NCBI GenBank assembly: GCA_009835325.1
Contig: VXWP01000013.1
Coordinates: 1-51,350, forward strand
DNA length: 51,350 bases
Direction: 5' to 3'
DNA from: Gemmatimonadota bacterium
Lineage (GTDB): Bacteria; JAAXHH01
How positions within the stretch are numbered: position 1 is the first letter of the stretch; each line of letters starts with the position of its first letter. Position numbers and translations under genes: made by a program. Below are positions 5,762 through 46,548 of this stretch, piece by piece. A model generated the notes under the pieces. It searched no databases, had not been told where the DNA came from, and saw only the letters and a list, made by a program, of their open reading frames with translations.

Positions 5762-8700
5762 ATGAGGTTCGCTCCCGGGTCTCGCTTCCTGCCCCTTTTC
5801 GTGGGTCTGGCCCTAACGCTGTCCCTGCAGCCCGCCTGCCTGACGAATCCCTCGGGTCCGCCGACGCAGGAACCCACTACGATCACGCTGTCGACCTACC
5901 GGATCGTGTTCACGGCCGTCAACGACCATGTGCGTATCGACGCCACGGTGCTGGACCAGGACAGCAGGGTGATCGCCGACGCCACGGTGAACTGGCGCAG
6001 CGCGGACAACAGCGTGGCCCGGGTGACCGACCGGGGCGTGGTGACGGCCGCGGGAGCCGGAACGACGCAGATCACCGTCTCATCGGGTTACGCCACGGCA
6101 ACCGCGACGGTCTCGGTGGAGCAGGTGGCGGACAGCATCGAGATCTCCCCTTCTTCCATCACACTGGCGCAGGTGGGCGAGACAGGTCAGTTCACGGCGG
6201 TGGTTTTCGATGCAAACGACCGGATCATTCCGGGCGCGGCGGTGGTGTGGTCGAGCAGTAACCCCGAAATCGCCACGGTGGACGCCAGCGGCCTGGTGAC
6301 GGCGGTGTCGCCCGGGGATGCCCTGGTCACGGCTTCCTCGGGCGGAGTCTCCACGTCCCGTCCCGTCTACGTCGAGGTCGCGCCGGAGCCGTCGCGCATC
6401 GTGCTCAACATATCGGAAGCGACGCTGGCGGCCGTGGGCCAGAGCCTGCAGCTGGACGCCCAGGTGTACGATTCGGATGGCGCGGCCATCCCGGGCGCGG
6501 TGGTGATGTGGTCGAGCAGCCGCCCGGACGTGGCCACGGTGGCCGCGGGCGGCCTGGTGATCGCGGTGTCGAACGGCACGACGCAGGTCACGGCTTCCTC
6601 GGGCGACGCGTCGGCGCAGGCGTTGATCCACGTGGTCATCGAGGGCACAGAGCCGCCGGACCCACCGGACCCGCCACCGCCTCCTCCTCCCCCGCCGGAA
6701 ACGTCGACAGATCGTGACGTATTAGTCGCACTATACGAGGCCACGGACGGTCCGAACTGGACGAACAACACAAACTGGCTGAGTGATGCGCCGATTGGGG
6801 ATTGGTACGGGGTGGACGCGAATGCCAGCGGGCAAGTGATTAATCTAAGGCTGAACAATAACGCGTTGTCTGGGCATATACCTGTCGAACTGGGTGAAAT
6901 GGCTGAACTGCGTCTTCTGAGTGTCGGTTTTAACGCGCTAACCGGTAGTATTCCCCTCGAAATGGGAAAACTTGTCAACCTGCACTTTCTACGGCTGGAC
7001 CACAACGAACTGACCGGTAGCATCCCCCCAGTTCTGGGTGAGTTAACTAGACTACGCACGCTGGATCTGGCGAAAAACGTATTGACCGGACGCATTCCCC
7101 CGGAACTTGGAAAACTGGCAAACCTGAAGGCACTGAGCATTGCCCGTAACCAGTTAACCGGCAGTATCCCTTCAGAATTAGGCGCATTGGCCAACCTTAC
7201 AGAACTGAGTGCCGGTGCCAACCAATTGACCGGCAGTATCCCTCCTGAACTGGGAAGTCTTTCCAAACTTAGTATACTCGAACTACTTCAAAACGGTTTG
7301 ACGGGGAATATACCTCCCGAATTGGGTCGGTTGACCAACCTGGAAAGGCTGTATCTGAACGAGAATCAACTCACAGGAGAGGTACCTTCCGAGTTTGGCG
7401 GCCTTGCCAGTCTAAAAACGCTTAATCTCCAGGACAACACAGGGTTGACCGGTCCGTTGCCTGCTTCGCTGACCAACGTGAGTCTGATCGAATTGTCGAT
7501 GGGATATACGCAGTTGTGCGTGCCTTCAACCGACGAATTCAGGGTGTGGCTGGATTCAATAGAAAACGCAACAGGTGTCACGTTCTGCGAACCCGAACCT
7601 TCATCCGACCGCGACGTTCTGGTCGCCCTATACAATGCCACGGACGGTCCGAACTGGACGGACAACACCAACTGGCTGAGTGAAGAGCCGATTGGAACCT
7701 GGTATGGAGTAACGACAGACAACGATGTGAAAGTGATTAGACTGCGACTAAACGAGAACAACCTGAGCGGAGTGCTCCCCCCCGAGATCGGACAATTGTC
7801 CAATCTGCGAACGCTGCGACTCTTCAGTAACGCCTTGAGTGGTCCGATTCCTCCCGAGATAGGGCAATTGGCCAGTTTACGATACCTGGACATTTCAGAT
7901 AACAAATTCACCGGAGTTATTCCACCCAGTTTCGGACAGTTAGTAAATTTAAGAGACCTGATCCTGTCCTATAACCAATTTACCGGAAATATCCTGCCTG
8001 AAGTCTGGCAACTAAGCAATCTGGTCTTCCTGGATTTGGCCGATAATCAACTCACGGGTATAATCCCGCCCGAAATCGGGCAACTTGTGAAATTGCGTAC
8101 CTTGTCGCTTCATGGCAACCGGTTAACGGGTGTAATTCCACCCGAAATTGGACAGCTTGTAGAACTTGGAGGCCTGTTGTTACACGCGAATTTACTGACC
8201 GGCGAAATCCCATCGGAAATCGGACAGCTTGTAAATTTGAACGGCCTGAGGTTGGAAAGAAACCGGTTATCAGGCGAAATCCCGTCCGAAATCGGGCAAC
8301 TTGTCGGTCTTAAAGGCCTCCATTTAAGCGAGAACCAGTTGACCGGAGATATACCATCCGAAATCGGAAATTTGACTGTTCTTGAGCGGCTGACCCTTTT
8401 TGAAAACCAGTTATCAGGGGGAGTTCCACCAGAAATAGGTGGAGTCACCAAGCTGTTGGTGTTGGATCTACGAGACAATCAACATATGTCAGGTCCCCTT
8501 CCGACTGCAATCACCTCTCTTTCGTCTTTGAACCGCCTGGCCCTTGAAGGGACGGAGCTTTGCGTTCCATCCAATGAGACTTTCCGAGCGTGGCTGGGCA
8601 GCATCGACAGACATTCCGGTGTCATTTTCTGCGAGGATGCGCCCGAACCATTGTCTGACCGCGACGCACTGGTCGCGCTTTACCACGCCACGGACGGCCC

Positions 8701-33473: not shown

Positions 33474-34499
33474 CTATGCCGCGGTTTCCATGTCGGCGCT
33501 GTACGTGCCGGTCCGGGCGGCGCTGTTGCACATGGCACGGTGGTAAAAGGCTTCTTGCCCTGCTTTGAAACGGGCGGGATCTCCACCCCATGCCCGCAGC
33601 GGGGCCGCCTGCAGTGCGCGGCCGTAGGAGAAACTGAGTTCCCACGGAAGCTCGCCGAACATGCGGTTCATGGCGTTCAGATGCGCCGTGGCGGTCTCGG
33701 AGGACTGACCGCCCGACAGGAAGGCGACGCCGGGTACATCCCGCGGGATGTTACGCAGGAAATTGTTCACCGTGCGGCGCGCGACTTCCTCCACGGAAGC
33801 CTGCTCAGGACATTCCGAACCCGAGATGACCATGCTGGGTTTCAGGACGATCCCATCCAGCTTGACCTCGTGCACGGCCAGGGCCTCGAACACTTGCCGC
33901 AGCGTAACGCCGGTAACCTCGTCGCACCGGTAGATGTTATGGTCGCCGTCCATCAACACCTCGGGTTCGACGATCGGTACGATGCCGCATTCCTGGCAAA
34001 GGGCGGCGTAACGCGCGAGGGCATGGGCGTTGGCGTCGATGCATACGTCAGTGGGAATGCCTTTCCCCACGGTAATGACCGCCCGCCACTTGGCGAAAGC
34101 GGCGCCCAGCTTCCCGTACCTGGTAAGGCGCGCGCGCAGGCCGTCGAGCCCCTCGGTGACTTTCTCACCGGGGAAACCGGCCAGGTCATGGATGCCGGTA
34201 TCCACCTTGATTCCCGGAATCACGCCTTTGTCGGACAACAGTCTGGGAAAGGGCGTTTCGGCTTCGTCCAGGGCTTTCTGGCGCAGGGTCTCGTCGTAGA
34301 GGATGACGCCGCTTATGAATTGCTCCATGCCTTCGGTGGTGAACAGCATGTGCCGGTAGGCGCGGCGGTTCTCCTTTGTCGAGGGCAGTCCGATGGCGTT
34401 GAACCGGCTCCTGATGGTGCCGCTGCTTTCGTCCGCGGCCAGGATCCCCTTGTCCGGGGCGACCATGGCACGGGCGATCTCATTCAGTTTGGAAGGCAT
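33474..34499 (-). CDS. Fructose-bisphosphate aldolase, class I
   Basis: A 341-residue glycolytic class I (Schiff-base) aldolase, interconverting fructose 1,6-bisphosphate with glyceraldehyde 3-phosphate and dihydroxyacetone phosphate. The catalytic lysine is in DGIVLKPSMV (Lys220); GILAADESSGTI near the N-terminus, AKWRAVI (Lys137), PIVEPEVL (Glu178, Glu180) and FLSGGQSSETAT are the family motifs. This is the animal/plant-type class I enzyme, without a metal site. GAGGAG lies about 12 bases before the ATG. It is divergent from the FGGY kinase and upstream of the HisC-like gene. Confidence 0.95.
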   Translation of the reverse strand: MPSKLNEIARAMVAPDKGILAADESSGTIRSRFNAIGLPSTKENRRAYRHMLFTTEGMEQFISGVILYDETLRQKALDEAETPFPRLLSDKGVIPGIKVDTGIHDLAGFPGEKVTEGLDGLRARLTRYGKLGAAFAKWRAVITVGKGIPTDVCIDANAHALARYAALCQECGIVPIVEPEVLMDGDHNIYRCDEVTGVTLRQVFEALAVHEVKLDGIVLKPSMVISGSECPEQASVEEVARRTVNNFLRNIPRDVPGVAFLSGGQSSETATAHLNAMNRMFGELPWELSFSYGRALQAAPLRAWGGDPARFKAGQEAFYHRAMCNSAARTGTYSADMETAA

Positions 34500-42188: not shown

Positions 42189-42248
42189 TCAGGTGCCTTT
42201 CGTTTTAATAAGCCGGTCGAATACGTCACAATGATATTAATGGCCTTG

Positions 42249-42275
42249 GTTATATTGTACAATTGTACAAGTCAA
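42249..42275 (-). promoter_or_regulatory. M24 peptidase promoter with embedded perfect palindrome operator
   Basis: On the minus strand, TTGACT (42270-42275) and TATAAC (42249-42254) are separated by 15 bp, occupied by TTGTACAATTGTACAA (42255-42270), a perfect 16-bp palindrome. The position, about 60 bases before the peptidase ATG and inside the promoter, is classic for a repressor site. The TTGTACAA half-sites resemble operators of GntR-type regulators; no regulator gene is adjacent. Confidence 0.6.
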
Positions 42276-42322
42276 TACCGGCATGGATGGCTTCTGGGCT
42301 TGTACGATCGGGATCTCTCGGG

Positions 42323-45570: not shown

Positions 45571-46548
45571 ATGAACATCGACAAAGATAATGTAGCGGAG
45601 TACGTTCACACAAGACATCTATTGGCCCCGCCGCGGGAAGGTTCCTGCACGGTGGAAGAACTGGGCGGCGGGTTTCTGAATACCGTGCTGCGGGTCACCG
45701 CCGACGACCGATCGGTCGTGGTGAAACAGGCCCTGGACGCGTTGCGGCTCTTCCCGGACCTCAAAGTCACCACCGACCGGATCGTCTACGAGACGCGGGC
45801 CCTCCGGGTTTTGAACGGACTGTTCCCCGAGGGGACCGTTCCGGCCGTCCTGCACTTCGACGACGCGGATCGCATCCTGGTCATGTCGGATCTGGGAAAG
45901 CGCCCGTCCCTGGAATCCGAGTTGGAGCGGGGACGCGTCGATCCTGCCGTGGCGGAGCAACTCGGCGGGTTTCTTTCGACCCTGCACCGGCAGACCTGGG
46001 ACGACCGGGAACTGCGCGGGCAATTCGACAACGAGGCCATGCAGGGCCTGAGGTACAAGTACTGTTTCTATTTCGTAGAAGATCCGGCGTTGAACCGAGT
46101 CGCCCGCCGGTTGGCGGAGACTTTCACGGAGACGAAGCAGACGCTGCTCCACGGCGACTTCTGGACGGCCAGCGTGATCGCCGCGGAAAAACGGGTCCGT
46201 ACCTTCGACCTGGAATTCGTCAACTACGGGCACCCGGCCCAGGACGCGGGTTTCATCATGGCCCACTACCTGCTGCACGCATACAACAAACCACGGGTCG
46301 CGGACGCGGTCTTCGACGCTGTCGAACTCATTTGGAGCACTTACGCGGAGGGCATGGGCGACCTGCTGCCTGAAGCAACGGAAACGATGGCCCTTCAGCA
46401 GGCCGGTCTCGAGATGCTGTTCCGCATCGACGGGATCAACCAGGTGCGGTATATCACCGACGACGGGGTCAGGGCACGCATTCGCCAGGCCGCCCGACCC
46501 ATGATGCTGGATGACGAAATAACGGTGGCGGGATTGCGCCACATTTGA
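45571..46548 (+). CDS. APH-fold small-molecule kinase, methylthioribose-kinase-like
   Basis: A 325-residue aminoglycoside-phosphotransferase-fold kinase. Residues 25-60 (VEELGGGFLNTVLRV, VVVKQALDALRLFPD, nucleotide-binding Lys52), the catalytic HGDFWTASVI (Asp196) and the metal motif FDLEFVNYGHPAQDAGF (DxE instead of DxD) resemble 5-methylthioribose kinase (MtnK) more than antibiotic kinases. No other methionine-salvage genes are nearby, so the substrate is inferred only. The ATG at 45571 is chosen because earlier in-frame codons overlap the divergent DUF2064 gene. Probably not a resistance gene. Confidence 0.72.
   Translation: MNIDKDNVAEYVHTRHLLAPPREGSCTVEELGGGFLNTVLRVTADDRSVVVKQALDALRLFPDLKVTTDRIVYETRALRVLNGLFPEGTVPAVLHFDDADRILVMSDLGKRPSLESELERGRVDPAVAEQLGGFLSTLHRQTWDDRELRGQFDNEAMQGLRYKYCFYFVEDPALNRVARRLAETFTETKQTLLHGDFWTASVIAAEKRVRTFDLEFVNYGHPAQDAGFIMAHYLLHAYNKPRVADAVFDAVELIWSTYAEGMGDLLPEATETMALQQAGLEMLFRIDGINQVRYITDDGVRARIRQAARPMMLDDEITVAGLRHI

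Follow-up and report, generated by a model that had tools for sequence, protein, structure and literature searches.

A 16-bp palindrome upstream of an M24 peptidase gene as the probable operator, distributed in trans, of a PIN–Phd/YefM toxin–antitoxin module

The palindrome TTGTACAATTGTACAA, located within the 134-bp gap (42189-42322) between the genes for a 3-hydroxyacyl-CoA dehydrogenase and an M24 peptidase, is probably a copy of the operator of a PIN–Phd/YefM toxin–antitoxin operon that has been distributed in trans, with the antitoxin acting as a genus-wide regulator. The window studied here, a stretch of 51,350 nucleotides with a GC content of 63%, comes from contig C13, one of the 119 contigs into which the 3.68-Mb genome is assembled. 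How often the word recurs, how well it is conserved, where it stands and that it accompanies the module both within the genus and beyond were all established by computation. An operator served by a regulator acting in trans had already been proposed in the initial annotation, and it appears to be the best reading of the site; the promoter geometry offered with it fails. It had also been pointed out, correctly, that no regulator gene adjoins the palindrome; none was named, and the candidate is now the Phd/YefM antitoxin encoded on another contig, C76. What the present work adds is a probable regulator and the finding that copies of its putative operator are dispersed in a conserved way.

The features of the locus are given in the table. 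The perfect palindrome is present as claimed and comprises two 8-bp units, but it does not fill exactly the spacer between a -35 and a -10 element on the minus strand, as had been stated: the spacer is one base shorter than the palindrome, which runs into the -35 hexamer, a consensus promoter scan requiring a spacer of 16-18 nt reports no promoter at 42249-42275, and the pair of elements is not conserved in orthologues. Among the six M24 orthologues that have the site, inspection by eye found TTGACT directly before the palindrome in our genome only. Nor is the site special merely as a palindrome, a possibility that was rejected since the window holds four perfect 16-bp palindromes (the other three at 45704-45719, 33736-33751 and 396-411) against 1.4 expected.

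Table. Features of the M24 peptidase locus (positions in the window)
Feature	Position	Strand	Remarks
M24 metallopeptidase gene, 379 aa	41049..42188	minus	PF00557; presumed target
-10-like TATAAC of the initial annotation	42249..42254	minus	15 bp from TTGACT; promoter scan: none
TACAAT	42254..42259	minus	Same hexamer as the -10 of the toxin–antitoxin operon (TTGACA-16-TACAAT there); no good -35 here
Perfect 16-bp palindrome TTGTACAATTGTACAA	42255..42270	.	Candidate operator; both of its TTGTACAA units contain a TGTACA core
-35-like TTGACT of the initial annotation	42270..42275	minus	Base 42270 common to the palindrome; not conserved in orthologues (by eye)
3-Hydroxyacyl-CoA dehydrogenase gene, 283 aa	42323..43174	minus	PF02737, PF00725; upstream neighbour, same strand as the M24 gene

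The genome search that had been suggested as a way to define the regulon did return further sites: the genome holds six perfect copies, one of them overlapped by a degenerate third unit, plus one copy with a single mismatch (ATGTACAATTGTACAA), while the composition of the window leads one to expect 5.1e-5 perfect copies from base composition and 2.7e-5 from a first-order Markov model, and the reversed control word has no perfect copy in the same genome. With up to two mismatches allowed, 96 forward matches were obtained in the 12 genomes of the genus versus one for the reversed control. At three mismatches the signal is drowned in our genome (10 matches versus four for the control), and a match of this kind at 7788-7803, in what looks by eye like leucine-rich-repeat coding sequence, was dismissed as being at noise level. 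Perfect copies number two to eight per genome and occur in all 12 genomes of the genus. The class sample comprised 16 genomes, and the four outside the genus, from four other genera and two of them 83-85% complete, have no perfect copy.

The places where the copies stand bear out the operator-like nature attributed to the palindrome, as they recur across our genome and those of the genus and are conserved at the same gene boundaries. We examined 90 loci with a site of no more than two mismatches, together with one of three mismatches (L034) that was left out of the grouping, and ten recurrent positions account for 77 of the 90. Four of these are occupied in 11 of the 12 genomes, namely those upstream of the PIN gene, a short-chain dehydrogenase, a PhyH dioxygenase and a PQQ dehydrogenase. 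The site lies upstream of the M24 peptidase in six of the 12 genomes, of a 515-aa protein with no Pfam or NCBIfam match in six, of an L-piperidine-6-carboxylate-type aldehyde dehydrogenase in five, of a MOSC protein in four and of an Mrp-type ATPase in two; the tenth position is 3' of a WelO5-like enzyme (10 genomes). Copies of the word thus occupy unlinked, conserved positions on the promoter side of genes, with one of the ten positions being 3'. Outside the ten positions are four further sites 3' of an esterase-like gene, and the remaining nine loci are two perfect sites in genome G012 and seven imperfect ones, several of them within predicted frames.

In the nine groups with at least four members each, the mean pairwise identity of the 16-mer is 0.963-0.989 versus 0.23-0.66 in 20-bp blocks of the flanks, these flank statistics being drawn from 76 of the 77 grouped sites, with L115 and any site less than 60 bases from the end of its locus excluded. 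Mismatches affect 30 positions, of which 28 belong to the two outermost of an arm, mostly on one side only; the centre varies no more than the arms do. A third unit resembling TTGTACAA accompanies four of the 77 grouped sites and two of the esterase group. After the esterase-like gene, three units in a row were seen by eye within perfect palindromes of at least 30 bp, at about L063:351-382 and about L096:4001-4034.

The M24 position illustrates how such a site may be lost. All 12 genomes have the M24 peptidase gene, and the site upstream of it is perfect in three and has one mismatch in three others; the six genomes without it (G002, G003, G005, G007, G009 and G010) lack nearly all of the segment corresponding to 42189-42322, which leaves a gap of about 40 bp to the upstream gene. 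In the gene tree the site is found in the deep branches G004, G011, G006/G008 and G012, and also in our genome (G000), which belongs to a crown group of seven whose other six members do not have it. The simplest reading would be that an ancestral site was lost together with its segment, the forks inside the crown group being unsettled.

The operon from which the operator would originate consists of a PIN toxin gene (PF01850, 46.4 bits) followed by a Phd/YefM antitoxin gene (PF02604), and is found in 11 of the 12 genomes of the genus. Its antitoxin scores 35.7 bits for PF02604, for which the curated threshold is 29.8, and 21.3 for TIGR01552 (curated threshold 20.8), and in all 11 operons the PIN gene is 7 or 12 bp upstream of the antitoxin gene. 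In the 11 genomes the word covers the -10 element of the σ-70 promoter of the operon and GTACAATTGTACAATA is invariant, with TTGACA-16-TACAAT being exact in seven of the 11. Correspondingly, the best -35 match in the PIN group averages 5.36 of six bases, the control with shuffled flanks giving 2.82. For the remaining groups this mean is 1.8-3.5 versus 2.65-2.85 in the control, with slight excesses for PhyH (3.36 versus 2.69), the dehydrogenase (3.27 versus 2.71) and the two Mrp sites (3.5 versus 2.85). Outside the toxin–antitoxin operon, the flank statistics therefore disclose no consistent σ-70 -35 element at the sites, and for this reason the mode of action on the promoter is not visible at most of the dispersed ones.

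The antitoxin has residues R10 and R30 aligned with the DNA-contact residues R10 and R31 of YefM, and both are invariant in all eight aligned relatives, although the overall similarity to the solved YefM is weak (E 0.09 for the single sequence, 5e-4 as a profile). The top rows of the profile search against solved structures were designed repeat proteins with repeated weak matches, which were taken as artefacts. Among the 11 antitoxins of the genus, codons 1-42 vary at 28 codons and at a single residue, so that 41 of the 42 residues are invariant; pairwise codon differences amount to 624 synonymous and 27 non-synonymous in this part, versus 338 and 333, respectively, in codons 43-72. The PIN protein has 83 of 135 columns invariant. 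So tightly held a DNA-binding part would fit a large number of dependent sites, but strict autoregulation alone might suffice as well. Within the class, the genomes of other genera are without both the antitoxin and the word. G012 has six sites (two perfect and four with one mismatch) and no antitoxin was detected in it.

The association of the word with the module extends beyond the genus. When one genome per species was scanned, 17 antitoxin loci were obtained, seven in the genus and 10 elsewhere. In a proteobacterial bin (L195), whose antitoxin is 49% identical, TTGTACAATTGTACAT, with one mismatch, stands 15 bp before the start of the PIN gene, and in a Lentisphaerae bin (L190) TTGTACAATTGTCCCA, with two mismatches, stands 20 bp before it. 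At L190:2232-2481 the PIN gene has an early stop and a deletion, the antitoxin frame is open and the palindrome is largely kept. An Entotheonella locus (L186) has a looser version, ATGGTAGACAATTGTACCAT, which is four mismatches away from the word and lies within TTGACA-16-TACCAT. The other seven of the 10 outside loci are without the motif, and a search for PIN there found C-terminal pieces in L187, L189, L191 and L194 and nothing in L188, L192 and L193. Apart from the operon copy, the L195 and L190 assemblies have no match with up to two mismatches, so the word is apparently a part of the module; among the assemblies compared, copies at other genes were seen in the genus only. Searches of plasmids with two antitoxins gave no match, and in 385 genomes of the class of L195, with no more than 14 candidates scored per genome, only the L195 genome itself matched. 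Viral contigs yielded one match of 33 residues, and in 17 of them with TTGAC-N14-17-GTACAATTGTAC no PIN or Phd/YefM gene was recognised by eye in the translated frames that follow.

This arrangement has parallels among known systems. In published accounts, YefM operators are described as paired palindromes with TGTACA cores, one of them over the -10 element, the cores of YefM–YoeB being spaced 12 bp from centre to centre, and R10 and R31 of YefM as needed for binding. As in YefM–YoeB and Axe–Txe, the operon site seen here in 11 genomes pairs palindromes with TGTACA cores and has one of them lying over the -10 element, and the N-terminal Phd/YefM domain of the antitoxin has both DNA-contact arginines. 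Unlike in YefM–YoeB, the toxin is a PIN protein, the toxin gene comes first and extra copies of the operator stand away from the operon; the cores are 8 bp apart and not 12, for which reason we regard the site as one that would work like a YefM–YoeB operator without classifying it as such. A second parallel is MqsA of E. coli, also the antitoxin of a toxin-first module, which was proposed as a global regulator binding operator-like palindromes at other promoters; this best-known example of such a claim was not confirmed by a later study, which weighs against the present reading. The case presented here differs from MqsA in that as many as 11 of the 12 genomes keep exact copies at the same boundaries. 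Versions of the word of 16, 14 and 12 bases were not found in a text search of the literature covered, and among the matches listed, in which subscription papers are mostly uncovered, titles and the beginnings of abstracts mention no Phd/YefM regulon in trans.

We envisage that the palindrome is the operator of the type II module on C76, with copies kept at unlinked gene boundaries throughout the genus. Dimers of the antitoxin, with or without the PIN toxin, would sit side by side on the two TGTACA cores and, by covering the -10 element, repress the antitoxin's own promoter. In trans, the antitoxin would control the M24 peptidase and mostly catabolic genes, the proposed targets being the short-chain dehydrogenase with an isomerase-like gene, the PhyH dioxygenase with a creatininase, the PQQ dehydrogenase and the aldehyde dehydrogenase, among others. 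Changes in free antitoxin, through proteolysis or the toxin:antitoxin ratio, would then change the expression of the target genes. Binding by the antitoxin, repression and the direction of regulation in general, the effector logic and the physiological purpose are what we infer from these patterns.

The fourteen 3' sites (10 after the WelO5-like gene and four after the esterase-like one) do not fit simple promoter blocking. In the WelO5 group, the word is found about 20-40 bp after the stop codon in 10 genomes, e.g., at L028:2419-2434, and the genes behind it vary. Cobalamin riboswitches (RF00174) share stretches with sites of this group at L028:2576-2779, L072:4155-4358, L039:3219-3422 and L057:7341-7545. 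That these sites are part of a B12 operon was considered and rejected, because the site stays near the stop codon of the WelO5-like gene while the following genes vary; the riboswitch starts about 140 bp after the L028 site. Also behind the WelO5-like gene, genes of HigA type, for a DNA methyltransferase and of HicB-type appearance were seen by eye (L039:3656-3961, L073:4743-5963 and left of the site in L101). Because different genomes carry different genes there, this place may be an insertion hot spot.

Regulators other than the antitoxin have to be weighed. It is unlikely that the word is recognised by a protein encoded elsewhere, for example of the ribbon-helix-helix, GntR/FadR or BlaI/CopY type, with the toxin–antitoxin operon being merely one more of its targets. 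Each site does consist of two or three 8-bp palindromic units that adjoin without gaps, as in the met-box arrays of MetJ, whose sequence is different; TTGTACAA and TACANNTGTA also resemble FadR-type and CopY/BlaI-type sites; and G012 keeps its sites with no antitoxin detected. The L195 and L190 assemblies, with the word at the toxin–antitoxin operon only, argue against such a protein by tying the word to the module. Less probable still is that the palindrome is bound by the divergent MarR-family regulator (PF01047) beside the operon, which would then control the operon together with the dispersed genes. Palindromes of this size are common among MarR operators, and the gene adjoins the operon in all 11 genomes that bear it (L033:748-1254, minus strand, where it has a conserved upstream block of its own), but in L033 about 320 bp separate the site from the start of MarR, and no TTGTACAA occurs in the conserved block closer to that gene, so the word does not mark the promoter of the MarR gene itself. 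Furthermore, L195 has the word at the same place of the operon, and the two neighbours of that operon look by eye, in the first 2.6 kb, like sugar-nucleotide genes and not MarR. The G012 assembly, in 520 contigs and 90% complete, yielded no MarR close to the neighbouring one, and since the antitoxin is likewise undetected there, this genome does not separate the two candidates. A function of the word at the RNA level, in chromosome maintenance or in recombination is very improbable: it would suit the fourteen sites directly after stop codons, and an RNA form could give, as judged by eye, a 6-bp stem with an AAUU loop, but the invariant centre and the mostly one-sided mismatches at the arm ends speak against it, as do the position over the -10 element of the toxin–antitoxin operon, where the word is mostly untranscribed, and the fact that copies hold the same gene neighbours across species.

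With the antitoxin as the preferred regulator, a further step is suggested by an operator apparently under selection at unlinked boundaries, a frozen DNA-binding part and a drifting C-terminal part: the antitoxin may well be a domesticated one that now serves these Latescibacterota-type bacteria as a transcription regulator throughout the genus. Candidatus Latescibacterota and Gemmatimonadetes bins of this kind come from marine sponges, and the bacteria are known here from metagenome assemblies only. It is a matter of dispute whether antitoxins encoded in the chromosome control any genes other than those of their own operon, and the present case brings to this debate operator copies that are exact and conserved at the same boundaries in as many as 11 of the 12 genomes, a regulator candidate that can be named, and two assemblies from outside the genus with the word only at the operon, so that the question can now be tested with one small protein and short DNA duplexes. 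If the proposal is true, metabolism in this genus would, like toxin expression, be set by the level of the antitoxin or by the toxin:antitoxin ratio.
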